A stretch of DNA of 24,760 bases, taken from positions 1 through 24,760 of IMG/VR virus record IMGVR_UViG_3300048445_000077. One strand, 5' to 3'. The notes below the pieces were generated by a model, which saw only the letters and a list, made by a program, of their open reading frames with translations, was not told where the DNA came from and searched no databases. Origin of the DNA: a virus. Made by a program: the position numbers and the translations under genes. Each line of letters opens with the position of its first letter. Positions within the stretch are counted from its first letter, which is position 1. Positions 2,780 through 13,841 of the stretch are shown piece after piece.

Positions 2780-2949
2780 TGAGTAACTGGATAGCAACTA
2801 ATGAACTACGGTGGTACGTGAGTACCGAAAGAGAACCATACAGTGATTATGTACTTCAGCAGAAGTGGAAGCACAACGAGGCTAGCTATTACGGAGGTAG
2901 GATTGTGTCTGAAGAATGGCGTGATGTACCTGTAGTGGAGGAAGAGTGA
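2779..2949 (+). CDS. Small hypothetical protein, 56 aa, inside the split polymerase locus
   Basis: ATG at 2779 shares its A with the stop of the polymerase N-terminal gene (TGATG), so translation is probably coupled. An earlier in-frame ATG at 2707 would overlap the conserved polymerase end and is unlikely to be used. The product begins MSNWIATNELRWYV and ends in an acidic tail; it is rich in Trp, Tyr and Glu and has no membrane segment. No family is recognised. It is the first of five small genes separating the two polymerase pieces. Confidence 0.7.
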   Translation: MSNWIATNELRWYVSTEREPYSDYVLQQKWKHNEASYYGGRIVSEEWRDVPVVEEE

Positions 2950-3242
2950 TGACCTTTGAAGAATGGTTCGATAAAGATGATGCTAATTATGTAGAGGATT
3001 TAGCTAGAGCCGCATACGAAGCTGGCATACAAGAAGGCATTCATGACCTCGTAAAGGCGCACCAGATTAGACCCAGAGGTAAGTCAATGCTTGTCTATCT
3101 GCCTGAAGGTTACGTCCTTGTACCTGTAGAACCTACAGAGAAGATGGAAGAGGCAGGGTTAGAGGTTCACCCTTGGGATTATACTGAAGATATGCAGAAA
3201 ATATACAAAGCCATGATACAAGCCGCACAGGAGGAAGAGTGA
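2949..3242 (+). CDS. Small MTFEEW-type phage protein, 97 aa
   Basis: The start ATG at 2949 overlaps the previous stop by one base. The N-terminus (MTFEEWFDKDD, then LARAAYEAGIQEG at about 19-31) resembles the short MTFEEWW-type proteins common in phage genomes, and the gene at 3600 is its likely paralogue. The C-terminal part contains the segment GYVLVPVEPTEKMEEAG and then a helical acidic end, similar to short phage proteins that carry a VLVPxxPTxEM motif. The function is unknown. Confidence 0.75.
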   Translation: MTFEEWFDKDDANYVEDLARAAYEAGIQEGIHDLVKAHQIRPRGKSMLVYLPEGYVLVPVEPTEKMEEAGLEVHPWDYTEDMQKIYKAMIQAAQEEE

Positions 3243-3382
3243 TGCAACAGTATCTAATAACAGTATGGGAAGATGGCGGTAAGTACAGCTACGTCATGGG
3301 CACTAACAACATAGATTCCGTTAAGAAAGACCTTAACAAGCGGTACAATCGTTACACTGTAGTAGCAAGGGGTACACTATGA
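3242..3382 (+). CDS. Small hypothetical protein, 46 aa
   Basis: ATG at 3242 overlaps the preceding stop by one base, and the ORF ends at TGA 3380-3382, overlapping the next ATG by four bases (ATGA). The product begins MQQYLITVWEDGG and has a beta-alpha character with a basic stretch (KKDLNKRYNRY) before a short C-terminal strand. No family is recognised. The call rests on the stop-start overlaps at both ends and an unbroken frame. Confidence 0.65.
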   Translation: MQQYLITVWEDGGKYSYVMGTNNIDSVKKDLNKRYNRYTVVARGTL

Positions 3383-3603
3383 GCAACCTAACACTAAAGC
3401 AACTGTTAGACAGCACAGAAGCAGGTGATGAGATTACACGCCATACGCTTCAGTGGCATTACCAATACCTGATGGAAGATACTAAGCGACTCTCTGACAA
3501 GGAGAACATTAAGCCGTACGAAGCTCAGGATATTGATAACAACATTATGTACATGGAAGCTATTAAGACAACGCTTAAGTTCTTTGGAGGTAGTGTTAAA
3601 TGA
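3379..3603 (+). CDS. Small hypothetical protein, 74 aa
   Basis: ATGA overlaps join it to both neighbours (start at 3379, stop 3601-3603). The product is soluble, helical and charged (MSNLTLKQLLDSTEAGDEI at the N-terminus, FFGGSVK at the end). It has no motif that allows assignment. It lies in the middle of the insertion that separates the RNA polymerase pieces. Confidence 0.75.
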   Translation: MSNLTLKQLLDSTEAGDEITRHTLQWHYQYLMEDTKRLSDKENIKPYEAQDIDNNIMYMEAIKTTLKFFGGSVK

Positions 3604-3758
3604 CATTTGAAGAATGGTGGGAAGATAGTGTGTATCCATTTATTTATGAAGACTGCGCTAAAGAAGCATGGGAAGGGGGCTTTGATGAAGGGTACAAGTT
3701 CGCTAACAAAGAGAACGAAGAGTACGACAAGACACTGACAGGGGACAGCGCAGTATGA
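3600..3758 (+). CDS. Small MTFEEWW-type phage protein, 52 aa
   Basis: The frame begins MTFEEWWEDSVYPF and contains YEDCAKEAWEGGFDEGYKFA, clearly related to the start of the 2949 gene (MTFEEWF, then YVEDLARAAYEAGIQEG). The shared order is the MTFEEW cap, a short acidic link and an amphipathic Ala/Gly-rich helix. It starts in an ATGA overlap with the previous gene and ends in an ATGA overlap with the C-terminal polymerase gene at 3755, so it is the gene directly coupled to the catalytic polymerase piece. Its function is unknown. Confidence 0.7.
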   Translation: MTFEEWWEDSVYPFIYEDCAKEAWEGGFDEGYKFANKENEEYDKTLTGDSAV

Positions 3759-5416
3759 AGAAGAACAGCAGAGCTTACCTCAAAGAACTTGAGAAGCGTG
3801 ACCTAAGCCAAGAGCTTAAGTGTGTTAATGCTCTTCAGCGTACACCTTGGCGTATCAACAAGAATGTTGTTAACGTTATCCGTACAGTGTGGGACAGTGG
3901 ACAGGAGTGGGCAGGACTTCCTCCCCGTGATGACCTAGCTCTTCCTCACTACCCGTTTGACGTTGAGCCTTCTGACTTGAACGTTGCACAGAAGCAGGAC
4001 TTTGCTGAATGGCGCAAGCGTCGAAACAGCATTCACTCATTCAACAACAAGTCACGCTCTAAGCGTATCCAGATTGAACGCACCATACAGCTTGCTGAAG
4101 ACTACCAGCAGTTCGATGAGTTCTACTTCGTATGGCAGCTAGACTTCCGTGGGCGTAAGTACCCTGTTGAATCCTTCATGTCCCCTCAAGTAGCTGACTG
4201 GGGTAAGGCATGTATTGAGTTCAGCCGTGGTGCTACTATCAACAACGACCAAGAAGCAGAGTGGCTTGCAATCCACGGAGCTAACAACTTCGGTGAAGAT
4301 AAGATTAGTCTTAAAGACCGTGAGCTGTGGGCGTATATGCAAGAAGAGAACGTTGTACGTACCGTAGAGAACCCTTACGACTTCCTGTGGTGGACTGAGG
4401 CAGACAAACCCTTCCAGTTCTTAGCGTGGTGCTTTGAGTGGTACGGTTACCTACGTGAAGGGCATGGCTTCATTACCCACCTACCTGTAGCCGCTGATGG
4501 TTCGTGTAATGGTTTACAGATTTTATCAAGCATCCTGCGGGATACAGAAGGCGGTAAGGCAGTTAACCTAATTGACTGTGACCTACCTGCTGACATCTAT
4601 CGTGACGTAGCTCAGGCAACCGAAGCCAAGGTACGCCTGGATGCCTCAAACGGTAACGAGATGGCTAAGAAGTGCCTTGAGTTTGGTATCGACCGTAAGC
4701 TTACCAAGCGTAGCGTTATGATTGTCCCTTACTCTGGCACTCAACACGCTTGTCGTCAGTACGTAGAGGAAGCTATTGAAGAAAAGGTAGCCAAGGGCGC
4801 TCACAATCCCTTTGGTGATGACTTCTTCAGCGCCAGCCTGTACCTAACTGGACATATCTGGTCTTCCATTGACGATGTAATCGGGTCAGCCCGTAAGGTC
4901 ATGGACTACGTTAAAGATGTAGGCTCCCTATACTCAGCTCGTAACATGCCTATGGAATGGATTACCCCGACTAACCTTCTGGTACGTCAGGTGTACAATG
5001 ACCATAGAACTAAAGTCATTCAGACTTTGATTGATGGCTCTATTGTCAAACTCAACTATCAACAGGGCATTGAGGACAAGATTAGTAAGAGTAAAACACG
5101 AAGCGGTGCTTCACCTAACTTCGTACACTCTTTAGACGCTTCCGCACTAACCATGACTGTAAACCGTTGTGTAGATGAAGGTATTGTAGATTTTGCAATG
5201 GTTCACGACAGCTACGGCACACACAGTCCTAATATGTGGAAGATGTCACACCTACTTAGAGAAGCGTTTGTAGATATGTTTCAAGAAAATGATGTATTGG
5301 AGCAACTATATACGTATACTAAGGAAAGGTTGAAGACAGACGATGTACCACTGCCTCCTAGTAAAGGAGACCTTGACATCCGTAACGTGTTGAAATCTAA
5401 ATATTTCTTCGCATAA
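3755..5416 (+). CDS. T7-like RNA polymerase, C-terminal catalytic subunit (split gene)
   Basis: This 553-aa protein corresponds to T7 RNA polymerase from about residue 300 to the end. It contains the palm, fingers and thumb but not the N-terminal domain, which is encoded separately at 2003-2779. Visible catalytic residues are Asp248 (AADGSCNG; T7 Asp537), Lys318 and Tyr326 (TKRSVMIVPYS; T7 Lys631 and Tyr639) and Asp485 (VHDSYG; T7 Asp812). The C-terminus YFFA matches the T7 FAFA foot. In the specificity-loop region (about 417-446) the positions matching T7 Arg746 and Asn748 appear as Lys and Ile, consistent with a non-T7 promoter. The first residues MKKN continue directly from the RAH end of the other piece. 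The start is in an ATGA overlap. This piece alone could not recognise promoters the T7 way, so I infer it works with the N-terminal piece. Confidence 0.95.
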   Translation: MKKNSRAYLKELEKRDLSQELKCVNALQRTPWRINKNVVNVIRTVWDSGQEWAGLPPRDDLALPHYPFDVEPSDLNVAQKQDFAEWRKRRNSIHSFNNKSRSKRIQIERTIQLAEDYQQFDEFYFVWQLDFRGRKYPVESFMSPQVADWGKACIEFSRGATINNDQEAEWLAIHGANNFGEDKISLKDRELWAYMQEENVVRTVENPYDFLWWTEADKPFQFLAWCFEWYGYLREGHGFITHLPVAADGSCNGLQILSSILRDTEGGKAVNLIDCDLPADIYRDVAQATEAKVRLDASNGNEMAKKCLEFGIDRKLTKRSVMIVPYSGTQHACRQYVEEAIEEKVAKGAHNPFGDDFFSASLYLTGHIWSSIDDVIGSARKVMDYVKDVGSLYSARNMPMEWITPTNLLVRQVYNDHRTKVIQTLIDGSIVKLNYQQGIEDKISKSKTRSGASPNFVHSLDASALTMTVNRCVDEGIVDFAMVHDSYGTHSPNMWKMSHLLREAFVDMFQENDVLEQLYTYTKERLKTDDVPLPPSKGDLDIRNVLKSKYFFA

Positions 5417-5477: not shown

Positions 5478-6104
5478 ATGGCTGCTAAGGCTAAAGTAAT
5501 TCAGGGTAACGCACTATGGGCAAAGGTTTTTGAACCTGATACCAAGTTCGACCCAAACGGCACATACTCTATTCAGGTTACAATTCCTGAAGAAGAAGCT
5601 GCTGGCATTTGTGAGTACCTCGATAAAGTAGTTCAAGACCGCTTTGATGAAGAGGTTAAGGCTAAACCTAAGATGAAGAATAGCCTGTCCACTAAAGCTG
5701 CGTATGAACCACACTATGACAAAGACGGTAACGAAACTGGTCTAGTAGAGTTTCGCTTCAAGCTTAAAGCTAAAGTCCAGACTCGTGATGGCTCTCTGTA
5801 TGACCAGAAGCCTATCGTTGTGGACGCTAAACGTAACCCTATGGACTCTAACAACCTGATTGGTAACGGTTCTATTGTTAAGGTGGCCTTTGAGCCTATC
5901 CCTTACGTTATGGCCTCTACTAAGCAGGTAGGTGTTAGCCTCCGTCTTAAAGGCGTACAGGTTATTGAACTCGTTGAGTACGGTAACGGTGGTGCTTCTA
6001 TGTTCGACGAAGAAGAAGGCTTCGTAGCAGAGAAGATGGAAATGGCAACCAGTCCGTTTGATGACGGTATGGATGACACCGATGAATCTGAAGGGGACTT
6101 TTGA
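5478..6104 (+). CDS. T7 gp2.5-like single-stranded DNA-binding protein
   Basis: The 208-aa product matches the gp2.5 type of SSB: an N-terminal OB-fold region (KVIQGNALWAKVFEPDTKFD, YSIQVTIPEEEA), a central part with LYDQKPIVVDAKRNPMD, and GNGSIVKVAFEPIPY, followed by a strongly acidic C-terminal tail ending in Phe (DDTDESEGDF). In T7 that tail recruits the DNA polymerase and helicase-primase and prevents unwanted DNA binding. The start has AAGGAGATATT before ATG, the strongest ribosome binding site near the promoter, consistent with high expression. It lies about 40 bases downstream of the promoter motif. The endonuclease gene overlaps its 3' end. Confidence 0.92.
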   Translation: MAAKAKVIQGNALWAKVFEPDTKFDPNGTYSIQVTIPEEEAAGICEYLDKVVQDRFDEEVKAKPKMKNSLSTKAAYEPHYDKDGNETGLVEFRFKLKAKVQTRDGSLYDQKPIVVDAKRNPMDSNNLIGNGSIVKVAFEPIPYVMASTKQVGVSLRLKGVQVIELVEYGNGGASMFDEEEGFVAEKMEMATSPFDDGMDDTDESEGDF

Positions 6105-6447
6105 GCATCGGGTTATCTCTGACCTTGAGAAGCGTGGAGTGCAGTACGAGTACGAACCTCATACTGTACCCTACGTTGTGGAGAGGAAGTACATCCCAGA
6201 CTTATTCGTGAACGGTGTTTACGTAGAGGTCAAAGGCTACTTCAGACAAGATGCCCAGCGAAAGATGAAAGCAGTAAAGGCTCAACACCCTGAGCTTGAT
6301 ATACGCTTTCTCTTTCAGCGGGGTAACTCTCCAGTCCAAGGCGCTAAGAAGCGCAAGGACGGGTCTAAGATGACTTGTGCAGAATGGGCAGACCGTAACG
6401 GCTTCTTATGGGCCGAAGGCGAACACATACCAGAGGGTTGGTTATGA
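6082..6447 (+). CDS. T7 gp3-like endonuclease I (Holliday-junction resolvase)
   Basis: The product (121 aa from this start) matches T7 endonuclease I. It has a helix FEHRVISDLEKRGVQYEYEP (T7 LEDKVSKQLESKGIKFEYEE), then YIPDLFVNGVYVEVKGYF with the nuclease residues Asp and the ExK pair (T7 YTPDFLLPNGIFVETKGLW), and QHPELDIRFLFQ. In T7 it resolves branched DNA and degrades host DNA to recycle nucleotides. ATG codons at 6061, 6073 and 6082 are all possible. I chose 6082 because the conserved region begins right after it, but the gene overlaps the SSB tail in any case. Its stop overlaps the next ATG by four bases. Confidence 0.92.
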   Translation: MNLKGTFEHRVISDLEKRGVQYEYEPHTVPYVVERKYIPDLFVNGVYVEVKGYFRQDAQRKMKAVKAQHPELDIRFLFQRGNSPVQGAKKRKDGSKMTCAEWADRNGFLWAEGEHIPEGWL

Positions 6448-6587
6448 AACTTAAAATAGACTTAGATGACATCATCCAAAAGCTGTACAGCGAAGCAGAC
6501 GACTACGAGCTTGAAGAGCTACGTGACCTTTTGACTGATTGGCTGGATGCTATTGAAGCTGAGTTGGCAGAGGAAGACGAGCTATGA
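6444..6587 (+). CDS. Small acidic hypothetical protein, 47 aa
   Basis: ATG at 6444 overlaps the endonuclease stop (ATGA), and its TGA at 6585-6587 overlaps the helicase ATG (ATGA). The product is strongly acidic and helical (MKLKIDLDDIIQKLY at the start, AEEDEL at the end). No family is recognised. Stop-start overlaps at both ends support it as a translated gene between two essential genes. Confidence 0.7.
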   Translation: MKLKIDLDDIIQKLYSEADDYELEELRDLLTDWLDAIEAELAEEDEL

Positions 6588-8182
6588 CAGCAGAGGACAG
6601 TGCATACATTAAGAAAGAAGCCTGTCCTCACTGCGGCAGTAGTGATGCTAACGCTCTATATTCAGACGGGCATCATTACTGTTTCTCTTGTGAGACTGTG
6701 ACTCCTTCCGATGACGAGGTAACTACAAACGTAGTAGAGATACCTACAGACTTCAGACAAGTAAGAGGGCAAGTCCAAGCGTTACCTAAACGCAAACTAT
6801 CTGCCGAAACTTGTAAGCTGTGGGACTACCAAGTAGCCGACTATAACAACCAGAAAGTTCAGGTCGCTTCCTACCGTGATACTAGCGGTAAGGTAATAGG
6901 CCAGAAGATACGCTTTGCTAATAAGGACTTTACGTTCCTTGGTGACGCTAAGAACGCACACCTTTACGGTAGGCATCTATGGCGTGACGCTGGCAAGATG
7001 GTCACAATCACTGAGGGTGAGCTTGATGCTCTATCCCTAAGCCAAGCATTTGGTAATAAGTGGCCTGTCGTATCAGTACGCTCTGGGGCTGCTGGCGCTA
7101 AACGTGACATTCAGAAGAGTATTGATTGGCTTGAGAAGTTCGAGTCTGTCATCTTCATGTTTGACAATGATGAGGTAGGTAAGAAAGCGGCTGAAGAGTG
7201 CGCCTTACTCCTCACACCTGGCAAGGCAAAGATTGCTTCACTCCCTCTAAAAGATGCTAGCGATATGCTACAAGAGGGACGAGTTAAAGAACTCGTTGAT
7301 GCAGTCTGGGCAGCTAAGGTGTTTAGACCAGATGGCATTGTTTCTGGCACTGAGCTGTGGGAGCTGGTCTCCTCAGAAGAAGTGGTTGAGTCCATCCCTT
7401 ACCCTTTCAACGGTCTTAACGAGAAGACGTTAGGGATACGTAGGGGTGAGATTGTAACCATTACTGCTGGCTCAGGTATCGGTAAGTCACAGCTTACCAG
7501 AGAGATTGCTTATGACATTATTAAGCAAGGCCATACTGTTGGGTACATTGCCCTAGAAGAAAGCGTTAAGCGTACCTCTCTTGGCCTCATGGGGTTAGCC
7601 CTAAACAAGCCTCTGCACTTAGGTGCTGAAGGTATAGATAAAGAGGAACTGAAGGATGCTTTTAATGCTACAGTCGGGTCTGGTAACGTGTTTCTTTATG
7701 ACCATTGGGGTTCTACAGATAGCGACAATCTTCTTGCGAAAATCAGATACTTGGTTCGTGGGTGTGGTTGTCACTACATTGTCCTTGACCATCTCAGCAT
7801 CGTTGTGTCTGGCATGGGTGATGGGGATGAACGTAGGCTTATTGATAACACCATGACCAAACTCCGTACACTGACGGAGGAACTACAGTGTGGACTTATA
7901 CTTGTATCACACTTGAAGCGTCCTGAAGGAAAGGGACACGAGGAAGGTGCGACTACTTCACTTGCACAGCTACGAGGTTCAGCAGCCATTGCTCAGTTGA
8001 GTGACATGGTGGTTGGCCTAGAGCGTAACCAGCAAGACAAAGACAACGCCAACCTCACAACAATAAGAATACTCAAGAACCGATGGACTGGTGAGACAGG
8101 TGTCGCTTGTCACCTTGAGTACAACAAAGAGACAGGCCGAATGGCTGAAACCTTCTTTAGCGAGGAACAGGATGATTTCTAA
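6584..8182 (+). CDS. T7 gp4-like primase-helicase
   Basis: This 532-aa protein has the full gp4 architecture. An N-terminal zinc finger has Cys14, Cys17, Cys33 and Cys36 (CPHC, CFSC). A TOPRIM primase domain has ITEGELDALSL (about 140-150) and MFDNDEVGKKA (about 190-200). A RecA-like hexameric helicase has Walker A GSGIGKS (about 298-304), Walker B YIVLDHLS and the LVSHLKRP motif, with a later arginine-rich KNRWTGETG segment. It would unwind DNA at the fork and make RNA primers. T7 gp4A is 566 aa, so length is normal. The start is in an ATGA overlap with the small upstream gene, and the stop overlaps the next ATG by one base. Confidence 0.95.
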   Translation: MTAEDSAYIKKEACPHCGSSDANALYSDGHHYCFSCETVTPSDDEVTTNVVEIPTDFRQVRGQVQALPKRKLSAETCKLWDYQVADYNNQKVQVASYRDTSGKVIGQKIRFANKDFTFLGDAKNAHLYGRHLWRDAGKMVTITEGELDALSLSQAFGNKWPVVSVRSGAAGAKRDIQKSIDWLEKFESVIFMFDNDEVGKKAAEECALLLTPGKAKIASLPLKDASDMLQEGRVKELVDAVWAAKVFRPDGIVSGTELWELVSSEEVVESIPYPFNGLNEKTLGIRRGEIVTITAGSGIGKSQLTREIAYDIIKQGHTVGYIALEESVKRTSLGLMGLALNKPLHLGAEGIDKEELKDAFNATVGSGNVFLYDHWGSTDSDNLLAKIRYLVRGCGCHYIVLDHLSIVVSGMGDGDERRLIDNTMTKLRTLTEELQCGLILVSHLKRPEGKGHEEGATTSLAQLRGSAAIAQLSDMVVGLERNQQDKDNANLTTIRILKNRWTGETGVACHLEYNKETGRMAETFFSEEQDDF

Positions 8183-8349
8183 TGATTACTTACACTGAAG
8201 ACGATTTACGAAAGGCGTGGCTGAAGTTCTTATTCACCCTTTACGACCTTGAGAAAGAAGGCTTGGACATGGGCGATTGGCCCGACATCGAAACGTTTAG
8301 AGAATTTTTTGAACAAGAATTAGAGGCATACTACGCCACTTTCCACTAG
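8182..8349 (+). CDS. Small hypothetical protein, 55 aa
   Basis: ATG at 8182 shares its A with the helicase stop (TAATG). The frame ends with TAG at 8347-8349, 19 bases before the DNA polymerase start. The product is acidic and aromatic-rich, beginning MITYTEDDLRKAWLKF and ending EAYYATFH, with a helical pattern and no membrane segment. The function is unknown. Confidence 0.7.
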   Translation: MITYTEDDLRKAWLKFLFTLYDLEKEGLDMGDWPDIETFREFFEQELEAYYATFH

Positions 8350-8368: not shown

Positions 8369-10075
8369 ATGCGCTACATCTTAGATATTGAAACCAACGG
8401 CTTACTATCAACAGTCGATACCATTCACTGTGTTGTACTACGTGACATAGACACAGATGAAGTAGTCTCATACACAGAGGAAACACGTTCTGTGTGTATA
8501 GATAGAATGGACAAAGCTACACTAATAGTAGGCCACAACATTCTAGGCTACGACTTCCCAGTCTTAGAGAAACTATGGGGTTACACATTTAAAGGTGAGA
8601 AGTTTGACACCTTAGTAGCCTCTCGCACCATCTGGCCTCACCTTGGACAGGTAGACAGCGAGAACAAACGTATTCCTAAGAAGCTTTGGGGTTCACACTC
8701 CCTGAAGGCTTGGGGCTATCGTCTAGGAGACCACAAAGGAGACTTTAACGATGGTACTACGGAAGTATGGGACAGCTTCACGCCCGAAATGCTCGAATAC
8801 TGCATTCAAGACACACAGGTCACAAAGACTCTTTTGGGACTCATTACCTCAAAGAACTTTTCTGAAGACGCACTACAGCTTGAGCACAACATCGCTGAAC
8901 AAATGTTTCTTCAAGAGCAACGGGGTTTTTCGTTCGACGTTGATGCCGCACGTTCCTTATTTGGAGACCTTGCGGACAGAAAACAGGAGATTGAACAGAA
9001 TCTTCAATCCACGTTTGAACCCACGATTGTCGAGCTTAAGACTAAGACTAAAACTATTCCGTTTAACCCAGCCTCTCGACAGCAGATTGCTGACAGGCTT
9101 ATTAAAAGGGGATGGAAGCCTGAAGTATTCACTGACTCAGGCCAGCCTAAAGTAGACGAAACAATCCTATCTAAGATTGATATGCCAGAAGCGCAGTTGC
9201 TTGTGGAATACCTAATGCTGAACAAACGCCTAGGACAGCTTGGTTCTGGTAACCAGGCATGGCTCAAGCTTGAACGTAACGGGAGGCTTCATGGGCGAGT
9301 TAATCACATGGGGGCAGTTACTTCGCGCTGTACCCACAGCAACCCTAATATGGCTCAAGTCCCTAGTGTCGGAGCACCCTATGGTACTGAGTGCCGTAGT
9401 ATGTTTACTGTCCCTACTGGTTACAGTCTTCTTGGTGCTGATGCTAGCGGGTTGGAGCTACGATGCCTCGCCCACTACATGGCTAAGTACGACGATGGTG
9501 CCTACGGTCGTGAGATTTTAGAAGGCGACATCCACACAGCCAACCAACAGGCCGCTGGTCTACCTACTCGTAACAACGCCAAAACGTTCATATACGGATT
9601 CTTATATGGCGCAGGCGACGAGAAGATTGGGTCTATTATTGGTAAGGGTTCCAAAGAAGGTAAGCGTATCAAGAAGAAGTTTCTTGAGAAGACCCCTGCA
9701 CTAAAGATGCTACGCGATGCCGTAGGTAAGTCAGCAGAAAAGGGTTGGATTAAGGGACTTGATGGACGGGTTATCCCTATCCGTCACGCTCACGCAGCTC
9801 TCAACACGTTATTACAATCCGCTGGAGCAATCATTTGTAAACGCTGGTACTGGGAAATAGTCCAGTCACTAGAGGCTAATGGTTACACAGAGGGAGATGC
9901 TTCTATTGTGGCGTTTGTTCACGATGAAGTCCAAGTACAAGTTAAGCAAGGTATTGAAGATGAAATCGGCAAGCTCATTACAGAAGCAATGCACAACACA
10001 GAACGCTATTACAAATTCCGCTGTCCTCTCGACTCAGAGTACAAAGTCGGAAAGAACTGGGCAGACACCCACTAA
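8369..10075 (+). CDS. T7-like family A DNA polymerase with 3'-5' exonuclease, thioredoxin-binding loop missing
   Basis: This 568-aa replicative polymerase carries an intact proofreading domain: Asp6 and Glu8 (DIETNG), Asp62 (GHNILGYDFP), Asp148 (YCIQDT). The polymerase motifs are also intact: motif A Asp358 (GADASGLELR), motif B Lys405 and Tyr409 (RNNAKTFIYGFLYG), and motif C His518-Asp519-Glu520 (VHDE). T7 gp5 is 704 aa. Most of the difference is at residues about 214-234, where T7 has roughly 70 residues of thioredoxin-binding domain before FNPSSR and this protein has about a dozen before FNPASR. The smaller insert in the T7 palm/fingers is also shortened. Tyr409 matches T7 Tyr526 (E. coli Pol I 762), the variant linked to fast, less selective synthesis. 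Confidence 0.95.
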   Translation: MRYILDIETNGLLSTVDTIHCVVLRDIDTDEVVSYTEETRSVCIDRMDKATLIVGHNILGYDFPVLEKLWGYTFKGEKFDTLVASRTIWPHLGQVDSENKRIPKKLWGSHSLKAWGYRLGDHKGDFNDGTTEVWDSFTPEMLEYCIQDTQVTKTLLGLITSKNFSEDALQLEHNIAEQMFLQEQRGFSFDVDAARSLFGDLADRKQEIEQNLQSTFEPTIVELKTKTKTIPFNPASRQQIADRLIKRGWKPEVFTDSGQPKVDETILSKIDMPEAQLLVEYLMLNKRLGQLGSGNQAWLKLERNGRLHGRVNHMGAVTSRCTHSNPNMAQVPSVGAPYGTECRSMFTVPTGYSLLGADASGLELRCLAHYMAKYDDGAYGREILEGDIHTANQQAAGLPTRNNAKTFIYGFLYGAGDEKIGSIIGKGSKEGKRIKKKFLEKTPALKMLRDAVGKSAEKGWIKGLDGRVIPIRHAHAALNTLLQSAGAIICKRWYWEIVQSLEANGYTEGDASIVAFVHDEVQVQVKQGIEDEIGKLITEAMHNTERYYKFRCPLDSEYKVGKNWADTH

Positions 10076-10481
10076 GAAATACAACAACGACAAGCGCTTT
10101 GATGTAGACCTAGCCTACGGGCAGATGCACGAAGAGCGTGTTGTTGCGATGCTAGAGAACAAGAAGATAGAAGTTAAAACAGAGCGAGGTATGTGGGCTA
10201 AGACTGGTAACATCGCTATAGAATTTGAAAGCTATGGCAAGCCTAGCGGAATAGCCTCTACTGAAGCTGACTACTGGTTCCATAACCTAGCGATAGGAGA
10301 CACCGTGTACGCTACGCTTATGTTTGATGTAGACGTACTTCGTACACTGGTGGAGGAACTTGACGACCACAAGGTTGTTAAAGGTGGAGATAACTGGGCA
10401 TCTAAGATGTACCTAGTGAACCTAAGCAAACTCTTCTCTACCGACACTGTAAAAGTTTTTAAAGAATTGGAGAAACAATGA
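9960..10481 (+). CDS. Predicted PD-(D/E)XK nuclease-fold protein overlapping the polymerase gene
   Basis: The conserved part begins at about 10080 (NNDKRFDVDLAYGQMHEER) and includes KKIEVKTERGMWAKTGN, a likely ExK nuclease motif, and ESYGKPSGIASTEADYW. Proteins of this type sit beside the DNA polymerase in many marine podoviruses, usually unnamed. The start is a problem: between 9960 and the conserved region there is no in-frame ATG, GTG or TTG. ATG 9960 has AAGG eight bases upstream but gives a 116-base overlap with the polymerase gene and a low-complexity Ser/Thr/Gln-rich N-terminus. ATG 10125 would cut off the KRFDVDL motif. A non-standard start or a +1 frameshift at the polymerase stop is possible. 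The frame is secure; the start is not. Confidence 0.75.
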   Translation: MKSASSLQKQCTTQNAITNSAVLSTQSTKSERTGQTPTKKYNNDKRFDVDLAYGQMHEERVVAMLENKKIEVKTERGMWAKTGNIAIEFESYGKPSGIASTEADYWFHNLAIGDTVYATLMFDVDVLRTLVEELDDHKVVKGGDNWASKMYLVNLSKLFSTDTVKVFKELEKQ

Positions 10482-10660
10482 TGGAAGTAGTCTACTGGAT
10501 GTTAGGGGTTTCGTTCACTCTAGTGTCTGTCGTCTTTGCTGTACGTTTAGCGTTCCAGTCTTGGCTGGACTACGTGCAGATTAAAGAAGGCATCGACATT
10601 ATGCGTATGCACATGGACAACGCTGAGGAGGGGTTTGACGATGACAACATTACTCATTGA
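10478..10660 (+). CDS. Small single-pass membrane protein, 60 aa
   Basis: ATG at 10478 overlaps the previous stop (ATGA). Residues about 4-26 (VVYWMLGVSFTLVSVVFAVRLAF) form one clear membrane segment, followed by a charged tail ending FDDDNITH. The 3' end overlaps the exonuclease start by 20 bases. A small membrane protein at this position has no clear T7 counterpart. Holin-like, host-interaction or pore roles are all possible and none is supported by sequence. Confidence 0.7.
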   Translation: MMEVVYWMLGVSFTLVSVVFAVRLAFQSWLDYVQIKEGIDIMRMHMDNAEEGFDDDNITH

Positions 10661-11366
10661 TGGTGACATTGTTGCGTACCACGCATCGGCTGCTTGCGAA
10701 CAACCTATTAACTGGGGTGATGGTCTTTGGACTCTTCATTCCTATGAGGCTGATGTCTTAGCCAAGGTAGATGACGCAATCAGTAAGCTCGTAGCAGACA
10801 GTGGTGCTGACAAGTACGCTGTGCCTATCAGTTCTACTATCAACTACCGCAAATCCGTAGCTGACTACTACAAGGCCAACCGTTCAAACACACGTAAGCC
10901 TATGTTGTTGGAGTTTGCCAAAGACTACATCATGGAAAACCACTTCGGTATGCAGTGGAAAAACTTGGAAGCTGACGATGTTCTTGGTATTCTTACATCA
11001 AGTTCAGATGAGTACTTGTGTTTCTCACAGGACAAAGACCTTGAAACCATACCTGGTAGACACTGGATTGATGGCAAAGAGGTTGAAATCACTGAACTGG
11101 AGGCTGACTACAAGTTCTTCACCCAGACCCTCACAGGGGATGTAACGGACAACTACAAAGGCTGTCCTAAGATTGGTGCAGTAACCGCAGCCAAGATACT
11201 CAACGAAGCTAAAGATGCTGATGAGATGTGGAAGCTAGTAGTTCACACATTCTACAAAGCAGGCTTAGGCGCTGAGGTAGCTTTAGAGAACGCTCGCCTT
11301 GCACGTATACTACGTAATGGTGAGTACAACATTGATACAGGAGAGGTGAATTTATGGACACCGTAG
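10641..11366 (+). CDS. T7 gp6-like 5'-3' exonuclease (FEN family)
   Basis: The 241-aa product has the FEN/RNase H-like nuclease signature: LLIDGDIVAYHAS at the N-terminus (metal ligand Asp), an acidic cluster LEADDVLGIL, FSQDKDLETIPG, and the helix-three-turn region LTGDVTDNYKGCPKIG, with Asp and the PKIG DNA-binding turn. In T7 this enzyme removes primers and degrades host DNA. I start it at ATG 10641, which is preceded by GAGGAGG at 10625-10631; a TTG six bases upstream is less likely. It follows the polymerase block as in T7 and overlaps the DUF3310 gene by 13 bases. Confidence 0.92.
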   Translation: MTTLLIDGDIVAYHASAACEQPINWGDGLWTLHSYEADVLAKVDDAISKLVADSGADKYAVPISSTINYRKSVADYYKANRSNTRKPMLLEFAKDYIMENHFGMQWKNLEADDVLGILTSSSDEYLCFSQDKDLETIPGRHWIDGKEVEITELEADYKFFTQTLTGDVTDNYKGCPKIGAVTAAKILNEAKDADEMWKLVVHTFYKAGLGAEVALENARLARILRNGEYNIDTGEVNLWTP

Positions 11367-11599: not shown

Positions 11600-11898
11600 A
11601 CGCAGATACTTTATTTGAAGCGATTGAAAAGTGGGGATGGGATAAAGGAATACTCCCTGATGCTGACCCGCTTGCTCAGTGGACTAAGACAATGGAAGAA
11701 GCGACAGAGCTAGGTGTAGCTATCGCTAACAGTAACCGAGAAGAAGTCAAAGACGCTATCGGTGACATCATTGTTACACTGACGATGCAAGCTGAGGCAT
11801 GGGCATTAACCCCACAAGAGTGTATGGAACACGCTTTTAACATTATTTCAAAACGAACTGGCAAAATGGTTGATGGAGTATTCGTTAAAGATGAATGA
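11596..11898 (+). CDS. MazG-like nucleotide pyrophosphohydrolase
   Basis: The 100-aa, all-helical product has the MazG metal-binding pattern: EEATELGVAI with a Glu pair, then EEVKDAIGDIIVTL (ExxD type). Such enzymes hydrolyse nucleoside triphosphates to monophosphates and may clean non-canonical dNTPs or alter alarmone levels. Single-domain phage forms are common. The start is GTG at 11596 inside the previous stop (GTGA). Its 3' end overlaps the glutaredoxin gene by eight bases. Confidence 0.88.
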   Translation: MNADTLFEAIEKWGWDKGILPDADPLAQWTKTMEEATELGVAIANSNREEVKDAIGDIIVTLTMQAEAWALTPQECMEHAFNIISKRTGKMVDGVFVKDE

Positions 11899-12121
11899 AG
11901 TAATTATCTTTGGTACTAGCAACTGCTCGTACTGCGACATGGCAAAGAAGCTGTGTGAAAACTTCAGCATCCCTTTTGTCTACTACGATATTTCAACTGA
12001 CACTAACGCTATGAACTACCTTATGGACGAGATTGGGATGTTTAAGACTGTCCCTCAAATCTTTGTAGATTCAGAGCACGTTGGTGGCTTCAGTGAGCTG
12101 AAGGAACTGCTTAATGATTGA
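11891..12121 (+). CDS. Glutaredoxin
   Basis: The 76-aa product is a complete glutaredoxin: beta strand VIIFGTSNC, active-site Cys12-Ser-Tyr-Cys15, TVPQIFV with the cis-proline loop, and GGFSEL for glutathione binding. It would reduce the C-terminal cysteine pair of the ribonucleotide reductase encoded directly downstream. An in-frame ATG 21 bases earlier exists, but ATG 11891 gives the normal glutaredoxin length. It overlaps the MazG-like gene by eight bases and NrdA by eight bases. Confidence 0.92.
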   Translation: MNEVIIFGTSNCSYCDMAKKLCENFSIPFVYYDISTDTNAMNYLMDEIGMFKTVPQIFVDSEHVGGFSELKELLND

Positions 12122-13841
12122 TATTGATTACTCCCGTAATGGGAACTTCTCTGAACAGGCACTAACCCTTCTTAAGGATTACTACTGTGAAGCTGGGGAA
12201 GACCCACAGGATGCTCTAGCCAGAGCGTCCCTTGCTTATTGTGAAGGTGACTTAGACTTTGCTCAACGTATCTACGACTACGCTTCTCAGCAGTGGTTTA
12301 TGTTTGCAAGTCCCGTGCTGTCTAACGCACCCGCAGAGGGCAAAGCACCTAAAGGTTTACCTATCTCCTGCTTCCTTACTTATGTTCCTGACACCCTTGA
12401 GGGTCTGATTGAGCATAACGCTGAGGTAGCTTGGCTGTCTGTTAAGGGTGGTGGTGTAGGTGGTCACTGGTCAGATGTACGTGGTGTGTCTGAGAAGTCA
12501 CCTGGCCCTATCCCTTTTCTAAAAGTAGTAGACAGTCAGATGACTGCATACAAGCAGGGCAAGACACGTAAAGGTTCTTATGCCGCTTACCTAGACATCT
12601 CTCACCCAGACATCATTGAGTTTATGAACTTCAAGTTGCCTACTGGTGGTGATGCTAACCGTAAGTGCTTCAACCTGTTCAACGCTGTCAACATTACAGA
12701 TGACTTTATGGAGGCTGTAGAAAATGACTCAGAATGGAAACTACGCGACCCTAGCACTGGACACGAACGCGCTGGTGTTAAAGCTAGAGACTTGTGGCAA
12801 CGACTTCTTGAAGCTCGCTTCAGAACTGGAAGCCCTTACCTCAACTTTATCGACACTGCCAACCGAGGACTCAATGAGTATCAAAAGGGAATTGGATTAC
12901 GCATTATGGGAAGTAACCTGTGCAATGAAATCCATCTCGCAACGGATGAGCAACGTACAGCAGTCTGTTGCCTCAGCTCAGTCAACCTCGAAAAGTTCGA
13001 TGAGTGGAAAGACACTACAATGATTGCAGACCTTGTACGTCTGCTTGATAACGTAATTACTTTCTTCATCGACCATGCACCTGATGAGCTAAATAAGGCA
13101 GCTTATTCGGCTCAACGTGAACGTTCTATTGGTCTAGGGGCTATGGGTTTCCACGGCTACTTGCAGTCTAAGCGAGTACCTTGGGAGTCAATGGTAGCCA
13201 AACTGTTGAATGACTCAATGTTTAAAACCATTAAGGAGCAAGCAGTAAATGAAACTAAGAGACTTGCACAGAAGCTTGGTGAACCTGGAGACATCGTTGG
13301 GAGTGGGCATAGGAACGCTCACCTTCTTGCTATCGCTCCTAACGCTAACAGTTCAATTATTTGTGGTTGCTCTGCTAGTATCGAGCCTATAAAATCTAAC
13401 GCCTACACACACCGTACTCGTGCTGGTGCTCATCTTATTAAGAACAAGCACTTAGAAGAGTCACTTGAAGTGATTGGTATGAATACACCTGAAGTGTGGA
13501 AGTCCATCATTAACAATGAAGGTTCTGTACAACACCTAGATGTCCCAGAGGATATTAAGGAAGTGTACAAAACAGCGTTTGAGATTGACCAGAGTTGGGT
13601 AGTAGACCATTCAGCCGACCGTCAGCAATACATCTGCCAAGGTCAGTCTGTTAACCTCTTCTTCCCTGCTGGTTCACCTAAGTCATACGTCAATGGTGTA
13701 CACCTACGAGCCTTTAAACAAGGACTCAAAGGGCTGTACTACCTACGTACTAACGCTGGTGTGGAAGCAGATAAAGTAGGTCTTCAAGTAGAGCGTAACG
13801 CCCTTAAAGACTCCGATGAATGTTTAAGCTGTCATGGGTGA
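12114..13841 (+). CDS. nrdA: Class I ribonucleotide reductase, large subunit, without ATP-cone
   Basis: This 575-aa subunit reduces ribonucleotides to deoxyribonucleotides. Active-site residues seen are Cys86 (PISCFL) and Cys285 or Cys286 as the redox pair, Asn268-Cys270-Glu272 (SNLCNE) with the thiyl cysteine, the tandem Tyr radical path (GLYYLRTN, about 537-544), and the C-terminal shuttle cysteines 570 and 573 (CLSCHG). E. coli NrdA is about 760 aa. The difference includes the whole N-terminal ATP-cone, so feedback inhibition by dATP is probably lost, as in other phage enzymes. It overlaps the glutaredoxin gene, and its partner NrdB lies 1.2 kb downstream past ThyX. Confidence 0.96.
   Translation: MIDIDYSRNGNFSEQALTLLKDYYCEAGEDPQDALARASLAYCEGDLDFAQRIYDYASQQWFMFASPVLSNAPAEGKAPKGLPISCFLTYVPDTLEGLIEHNAEVAWLSVKGGGVGGHWSDVRGVSEKSPGPIPFLKVVDSQMTAYKQGKTRKGSYAAYLDISHPDIIEFMNFKLPTGGDANRKCFNLFNAVNITDDFMEAVENDSEWKLRDPSTGHERAGVKARDLWQRLLEARFRTGSPYLNFIDTANRGLNEYQKGIGLRIMGSNLCNEIHLATDEQRTAVCCLSSVNLEKFDEWKDTTMIADLVRLLDNVITFFIDHAPDELNKAAYSAQRERSIGLGAMGFHGYLQSKRVPWESMVAKLLNDSMFKTIKEQAVNETKRLAQKLGEPGDIVGSGHRNAHLLAIAPNANSSIICGCSASIEPIKSNAYTHRTRAGAHLIKNKHLEESLEVIGMNTPEVWKSIINNEGSVQHLDVPEDIKEVYKTAFEIDQSWVVDHSADRQQYICQGQSVNLFFPAGSPKSYVNGVHLRAFKQGLKGLYYLRTNAGVEADKVGLQVERNALKDSDECLSCHG

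Follow-up and report, generated by a model that had tools for sequence, protein, structure and literature searches.

Genes and features of the window

The window, by which is meant the whole stretch of 24,760 nucleotides analysed here (positions 1 to 24,760 of IMG/VR virus record IMGVR_UViG_3300048445_000077), carries an early module in which split RNA polymerase ORFs are followed by genes for an SSB (5478-6104), an endonuclease (6058-6447), a primase-helicase (6584-8182), the DNA polymerase, an exonuclease (10635-11366), a glutaredoxin, ribonucleotide reductase genes, a ThyX-like gene and structural genes. The endonuclease, exonuclease, reductase, ThyX and structural names were assigned by eye or from gene order as compared with HTVC019P and CRP-171. 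The window thus shows the features of an Autographiviridae-type genome, namely its own T7-type RNA polymerase (two ORFs) and a T7-like gene order resembling that of HTVC019P. A megablast comparison of the window with 50,697 phage records gave two short matches and no others. The features considered here are the following:

2003-2779: first half of the RNA polymerase, 258 aa (Pfam RPOL_N)
3755-5416: second half of the RNA polymerase, 553 aa (Pfam RNA_pol)
5478-6104, plus strand: gp2.5-like SSB with the acidic tail ..DDTDESEGDF (family match)
6584-8182, plus strand: T7 gp4-like primase-helicase with the acidic tail ..FFSEEQDDF (family match)
8182-8349, plus strand: 55-aa acidic ORF (14 D/E, 5 K/R) between helicase and polymerase, present in part of the clade only
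8369-10075, plus strand: T7-type family A DNA polymerase with 3'-5' exonuclease domain and without a T7-type thioredoxin-binding domain (TBD), 568 aa (homology, fold model)
9017-9061, plus strand: polymerase residues 217-231, EPTIVELKTKTKTIP, a 15-residue thumb β-hairpin at the site of T7's 72 residues with the TBD (alignment, model)
9722-9748, plus strand: polymerase residues 452-460, up to W460 (T7 W592), where a KWKRR-type front patch is absent (alignment)
9879-10481, plus strand: ORF overlapping and following the polymerase, start codon unsure; the part past the polymerase stop belongs to PHROG 13596 (family match)
11870-12121, plus strand: glutaredoxin (CSYC), overlapping the start of a ribonucleotide reductase alpha-like gene at 12114-13841 (family match)

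The T7-type RNA polymerase is cut at about T7 residue 297-300. Its halves were found in separate ORFs in nine distinct contigs of the window's clade (the window, L001, L005, L006, L100, L103, L105, L106 and L140; polymerase 62-100% identical to that of the window), and perhaps also in L131 and L143 of the HTVC011P branch, where the contig end truncates the first half. They lie in one ORF in 33 sequences, and one half only was found in 22 further ones (L097 and L176 being copies of the L001 contig). In L005, L006, L100, L103, L105, L106 and L140 there is a 1-4 nt overlap between the stop of the first half and the likely start of the second. Simple frameshifting is excluded in L001 and the window, since the halves are 307 and 975 bases apart, respectively, and no intron was detected between them in the window by Rfam at gathering thresholds. 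The insert of the window (2780-3754) holds small ORFs; L005 and L006 have no such insert. A two-subunit T7-type RNA polymerase is described for phage N4 in the available portion of PMC4496689, with the N-terminus and thumb in gp15 and the palm and fingers in gp16; N4 RNAPII and the window enzyme are both encoded by two genes but are cut at different positions. No such split in Autographiviridae was found among literature titles and the opening lines of abstracts, and in the accessible parts of PMC9915841 and PMC10974468 the phrase "split into two" refers to other things. The split RNA polymerase is possibly more novel than the polymerase without a TBD.

Positions 727-1819 hold an ORF judged by eye to be tyrosine integrase-like and, immediately after it, a complete tRNA-Leu (TAA), which is the sole Rfam match at gathering thresholds across the window. 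The tRNA-Leu is likely the attachment site; in LUZ100, too, a tRNA-Leu lies next to the integrase. In HTVC019P, HTVC011P, CRP-171 and LUZ100 a lysozyme/amidase is annotated between the endonuclease and helicase genes; the corresponding interval of the window (6447-6584) has no room for one.

The polymerase and its thumb hairpin

The ORF at 8369-10075 is an uninterrupted reading frame whose 568-residue product has the exonuclease domain at its N-terminus. T7 gp5 was its top solved relative (phmmer, E 1.3e-129), the alignment being interrupted at the TBD (query residues 4-217 and 226-568 versus T7 residues 3-262 and 328-704). In the MAFFT alignment the exonuclease positions D5, E7, D65 and D174 and the polymerase positions D475, E480, H506, R518, K522, Y526, Y530, H653 and D654, which we take to be the catalytic residues of T7 gp5, were all identical in the window polymerase (13/13), in agreement with the sequence-only reading, which had described all exonuclease and polymerase motifs as intact. 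The AlphaFold2 model (24-row alignment, mean pLDDT 92.8) superposed on T7 gp5 over 567 of 568 residues at 2.1 Å (Z 44.1, 46% identity), and less well on the Klenow fragment (517 residues, Z 36.9, 22-24% identity). Among the matches listed, the closest named polymerases by protein were those of Roseobacter phages (best 51.8%), followed by LUZ100 and Pelagibacter phages; whole-protein identity to the CRP-171, HTVC019P, HTVC011P and LUZ100 enzymes was 44.5-51.8%.

Between F261 and F334 T7 gp5 has 72 residues, and between the equivalent F216 and F232 the window polymerase has 15 (MAFFT alignment). In the model these 15 residues form a β-hairpin with strands 219-222 and 227-230, the pLDDT across it being 92, 86 and 93 in ten-residue blocks, and K224, K226 and K228 are placed at and beside its tip. 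The KTK motif is present in all 58 rows with a 15-residue loop (23 distinct loops); the net charge of the window hairpin is only +1. Its likeness to the T7 TBD was within chance, 382 of 500 shuffles scoring as high in local alignment. A frameshift or assembly error behind the short loop was ruled out: L001, with a polymerase 93% identical, has the identical 15 residues, and 58 of 167 rows are 15 long. The absence of a T7-type TBD, deduced earlier by eye, is therefore borne out by the phmmer break, the alignment, the modelled hairpin and the shuffle test. The loop had been placed at residues 214-234 and put at about a dozen residues, accurate within a few, and the structure prediction and alignment to T7 gp5 suggested at that stage gave a plain hairpin at the TBD site, with the remaining fold superposing on gp5. 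The window polymerase is a full T7 gp5 homologue but no thioredoxin-type member.

A second feature of T7 gp5 is also missing. The KWKRR stretch at 587-591 is presumably the front basic patch of T7 gp5; no such patch was found in the window polymerase by alignment, one Lys being present among the five residues before W460. The five residues before the W592 equivalent were compared in distinct segments by loop class. Four K/R were found in 5 of 10 segments from polymerases with loops of 61 residues or more, and 0-2 in all segments of the 15-22 (44/44) and 46-58 (12/12) classes; the 30-39 class had 0-2 in 50 of 52 and 3 in the other two. The faecal phage contig MT836074 (L096) combines a front-patch-like KWKKR with a loop of only 34 residues, which suggests from sequence that the front patch is the older of the two features, provided that L096 did not lose a TBD. 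According to the consulted parts of PMC5997990 and PMC12593628, the acidic tail of the T7 helicase docks on two gp5 sites, the TBD patch and the front patch, and the processivity of the replisome increases from 5 to 17 kb through these contacts.

Loop lengths and history of the thioredoxin-binding domain

The loop survey started from 176 sequences, of which 170 gave polymerases and 167 had both anchors (111 distinct loops). The viral contigs were chosen by likeness to the window polymerase and the named phages were hand-picked, so that loop-length frequencies are biased accordingly, and the 167 rows contain duplicates (the window twice, one contig twice, and near-identical contigs). Within this sample the loop measured 4 (1 row), 15 (58), 17 (1), 22 (14), 30-39 (70), 46-58 (12) and 61 or more residues (11), the 4-residue loop belonging to a mycobacteriophage polymerase (outgroup) and the 17-residue loop to a fragment. 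Short loops among named phages were those of HTVC019P (22), CRP-171 (33), HTVC011P and LUZ100 (34 each), and Syn5, P60, P-SSP7, S-TIP28 and S-CBP42 (30 each). The S-CBP42 polymerase is unannotated, yet present in the DNA. Since 4-58 residues stand at the TBD site in 156/167 rows, absence of the TBD is no oddity of this marine T7-like phage, as it had earlier been framed; the exceptional polymerases of this sample are those of T7 and its near kin.

Likeness to the T7 TBD was assessed for 20 loops by local alignment to T7's 72 residues against 500 shuffles each. The KN3-1, LET1, Rostov-1, ICP3 and BIM BV-46 loops were clearly T7-like (0/500 shuffles as high). Weak likeness was obtained for BB8 (62 residues, 1/500) and for two loops of 34/35 residues, L029 (1/500) and L056 (4/500), and marginal likeness for L008 (38/500). 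The loops of SP6, phiKMV, 521E56-1, L156, L155, L170, L116, L164, L096, CRP-171, HTVC019P and the window showed none (82 to 483 of 500). The 62-residue loop of Bordetella phage BB8 (L085) may represent a distant or intermediate TBD. In the 46-58 class the loops tend to share their ends with the 15-residue class (..MKT/MKS ... KTKxIP) and to have the extra residues inside (by eye). In L155, L159, L166, L170, L171 and L175 thumb hairpins of 47-58 residues have ends much like the 15-residue hairpin and an unrelated insert; here another domain may be growing at the site of T7's TBD. Other inserts thus seem to occupy the same hairpin tip as the TBD.

A tree of 70 rows was built without the loop columns, and its root was not inferred. 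In an earlier quick tree of 91 rows, also without loop columns, long branches met, the outgroup was very far and the rooting was unsure. Rows more than 80% identical were dropped from the 91-row tree and rows more than 70% identical from the 70-row tree. Left out of the trees were rows with fewer than 480 aligned residues, ICP3 (annotated frameshift), L028 (broken frame) and P-SSP7 (annotated split gene); the 70-row tree was also built without the long or divergent rows phiKMV, SP6, PainterBoy, 521E56-1, L056-L060, L062 and L063. In this tree loops of 63 residues or longer were labelled as TBD, so that BB8 (62) and L156 (61) counted as other. The loops of 63-72 residues (T7, Rostov-1, LET1, BIM BV-46) formed a single clade (support 100/98) with L096 as its sister (100/100); next outward were L116 (34 residues) and BB8 (98/93), and then rows with 15 and 39 residues (100/96). 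The window lineage was placed away from the T7 clade, and the 15-residue form appeared on several branches.

Read most simply, these sequences place the origin of the TBD in or near Studiervirinae, the window line never having had one. Because the clear T7-like TBDs fall into a single clade surrounded by shorter-loop rows, "never gained" probably fits the window polymerase better than "lost". A slightly older TBD, shortened later in L096 and L116, is possible, since the BB8 loop is weakly T7-like and the root was not inferred. No sequence sign was seen that the TBD had grown from a 34-residue hairpin, 82 and 106 of 500 shuffles scoring as high as the L096 and L116 loops, respectively. As the close relatives examined are also devoid of a TBD, the comparison suggests that binding thioredoxin is peculiar to the T7 branch.

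Holding the polymerase at the fork

Near the polymerase the window encodes both partners of a T7-type replisome, a gp2.5-like SSB and a gp4-like primase-helicase, each with a Phe-ending acidic C-terminal tail. Among relatives, distinct tails were scored as acidic at a net 3 or more in the last 15 residues. Acidic tails with a terminal aromatic residue were found, for the 15-22, 30-39, 46-58 and 61-or-more loop classes, in 33/40, 33/35, 4/8 and 3/3 SSBs and in 26/43, 34/49, 4/11 and 4/5 helicases, respectively. The helicase tails failing this test (17/43 and 15/49 in the two shorter classes) include that of HTVC011P (..LAESSFDE), and among 12 listed of the 17 in the 15-22 class 9 come from the L030-L064 lineage. 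All seven failing SSB tails of the 15-22 class come from the L030-L054 lineage and have bacterial-SSB-like ends (..DDDIPFAS, ..AVPF). The L030-L054 group thus consists of relatives of the window polymerase with bacterial-looking SSB tails (..DDDIPFAS, ..EAVPF), not ..DF. For Rhizobium phages RHEph21 and TRX32-1 the last SSB residues are EEIPL and DDIPF.

The loops at the TBD site were richer in K/R than the whole proteins, with 22 versus 14% in the 15-22 class, 21 versus 13% in the 30-39 class and 20 versus 13% in the 46-58 class; the enrichment was lesser in loops of 61 or more (17 versus 13%). Net-positive distinct loops numbered 33/37, 50/51 and 10/11 in the three TBD-less classes (93/99 in total) and 10/11 in loops of 61 or more. 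Because the TBD-less loops are K/R-rich and net positive, we propose, with moderate confidence, a replisome without thioredoxin in which the polymerase is tethered by the tails of helicase and SSB, with its basic thumb hairpin as a possible dock. This would be a T7-type replisome whose polymerase probably never gained the thioredoxin clamp and kept a short thumb β-hairpin with conserved lysines (KTKTK) in place of T7's TBD. The primase-helicase hexamer and the SSB would mainly hold the polymerase at the fork, their tails acting as tethers that recapture it after release; the likeliest docks for the tails would be the basic thumb hairpin and the remainder of the region ahead of the fork. Processivity would then come from tethering, with thioredoxin unused. 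Acidic tails have other roles in T7, the SSB tail shielding the protein's own DNA site, and so their retention is no proof that they dock on the polymerase; the K/R-rich hairpin, lying in the DNA-binding thumb, could simply touch the duplex. The sequence-only reading had named the SSB and helicase among possible sources of processivity, which agrees indirectly with the tails kept by both; it had overlooked that both docking sites of the T7 helicase tail are missing. Its view that processivity must come from another source is reasonable, although a moderately processive polymerase with frequent rebinding may do as well. A wider version of the proposal is offered tentatively, as a rather unlikely one: the T7 thioredoxin clamp would be a late, lineage-specific graft on a basic thumb hairpin that was an older dock for the acidic SSB and helicase tails, marine podophages would be thioredoxin-independent with a 15- to 35-residue hairpin as the whole tether, and other lineages would have grown different mini-domains (46-95 residues) there.

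Tethering may also be superfluous. The modest intrinsic processivity of a fast Pol I-type enzyme, with frequent release and rebinding at high local concentration, may suffice for a genome of about 40 kb; the contig nearest to the window has 39,636 bases, the TBD-less thumb resembles the Klenow arrangement (fold match Z 36.9), and the loop shrinks to 4 residues in the mycobacteriophage outgroup. The retention of the SSB, helicase and polymerase genes and of the tails of T7's coupled replisome, together with a retained and conserved basic hairpin, argues against this explanation, which we consider possible and fairly unlikely. The involvement of a thioredoxin or thioredoxin-fold protein, bound through the small hairpin or another surface, is less probable again and would be unlikely in our estimate. 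The factor could be the phage's own thioredoxin-like protein in Synechococcus podophages with a 30-residue loop or, in the window phage, the glutaredoxin. In its available text PMC2784036 reports thioredoxin in T7-like marine phages and calls it a seemingly universal accessory cofactor, similar reasoning is found in the accessible part of PMC4961962, cyanopodoviruses with a polymerase are expected to replicate much like T7 in that of PMC9860041, and an excerpt of PMC3556154 gives phiCbK a thioredoxin-binding loop 11 aa longer. The portion of PMC6775973 available has thioredoxin in a reference title only, and the accessible parts of the open-licence literature yielded no mention of a missing TBD in marine T7-like polymerases. 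Sequences of the window type do not support T7's way of binding thioredoxin in marine T7-like phages, and the 15-residue hairpin is far smaller than T7's thioredoxin-binding loop (71 residues in the consulted part of PMC3997047).

Thioredoxin-like ORFs follow the helicase gene in 4/5 cyanopodophages examined, all five having polymerases with 30-residue loops. The four ORFs, Syn5 gp25, P60 gp15, S-TIP28 gene 27 (annotated as thioredoxin) and S-CBP42 gene 50, are thioredoxin/glutaredoxin-like, related to one another and placed immediately behind the helicase gene; none is annotated there in P-SSP7. In the sequences of these four Synechococcus podophages the ORFs lie between helicase and polymerase at L082:10475-10771, L088:7603-7866, L180:3483-3785 and L181:3483-3788. 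With a thioredoxin-like ORF after the helicase and a 30-residue-loop polymerase in all four, these phages may be an exception in which the TBD-less polymerase is partnered by a thioredoxin-like protein of the phage itself. The window glutaredoxin adjoins a reductase gene, not the polymerase, and was matched in at least 3/89 sequences, window included (blastp E 1e-3, which missed the annotated glutaredoxin of CRP-171). It is most likely the reductant of ribonucleotide reductase, and as a processivity factor it is a weak candidate. Still more doubtful is a dedicated small phage protein, encoded by the 55-aa ORF before the polymerase or by the PHROG 13596 gene behind it. Both adjoin the polymerase in the window and relatives, and PHROG 13596 recurs behind the HTVC019P and HTVC011P polymerases; it was matched in 17/89 sequences, the window and its copy included. 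The model of the 9879-10481 protein (pLDDT 50) was too poor to read or to search with. The 55-aa ORF had no family match above the cut-off; it was found in the window, L001-L006, L098, L100 and perhaps L101 (E 0.003), and not in L102, L104, L106 and L108 of the window's clade or in L103. It cannot be required, because these five short-loop relatives leave only 28-46 nt between the helicase match and the polymerase, and so the "unknown small protein" suggested earlier, if equated with this ORF, gives no general answer. Use of the host beta sliding clamp has the general precedent of bacterial polymerases as its sole point in favour; no clamp-binding-like motif was found in the window polymerase with the two patterns tried, and this explanation is extremely unlikely.

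T7 is the textbook minimal replisome, with thioredoxin presented as part of it, and the role of thioredoxin in marine phages was extended by analogy in the portions available of PMC2784036 and PMC4961962, with T7-like replication expected in that of PMC9860041. If tail tethering is the answer and marine relatives work without thioredoxin, tethering by helicase and SSB would be the general mechanism and thioredoxin an add-on. The question raised is how a T7-type replisome functions when thioredoxin and both known docking sites are lacking. A natural gp5 homologue devoid of TBD and front patch would be a clean tool for locating acidic-tail binding.

Compared with known systems, the window polymerase resembles T7 gp5 in its entire fold and in its exonuclease and polymerase residues (structural-alignment identity from 39% with Foldseek to 46% with VIA-align), and differs from it in having 15 instead of 72 residues at the TBD site and no front basic patch. 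It shares the family A fold with the Klenow fragment of E. coli DNA polymerase I, a repair enzyme, and this fragment has no TBD. The polymerases of Syn5, P60, S-TIP28 and S-CBP42 likewise have a short form without a T7-length TBD, but these phages differ from the window in the thioredoxin-like ORF between helicase and polymerase. Roseobacter phage CRP-171, Pelagibacter phages HTVC019P and HTVC011P and Pseudomonas phage LUZ100 are, like the window, without T7-type TBD or front patch, and their hairpins (33, 22, 34 and 34 residues, respectively) are longer than the 15 residues of the window.
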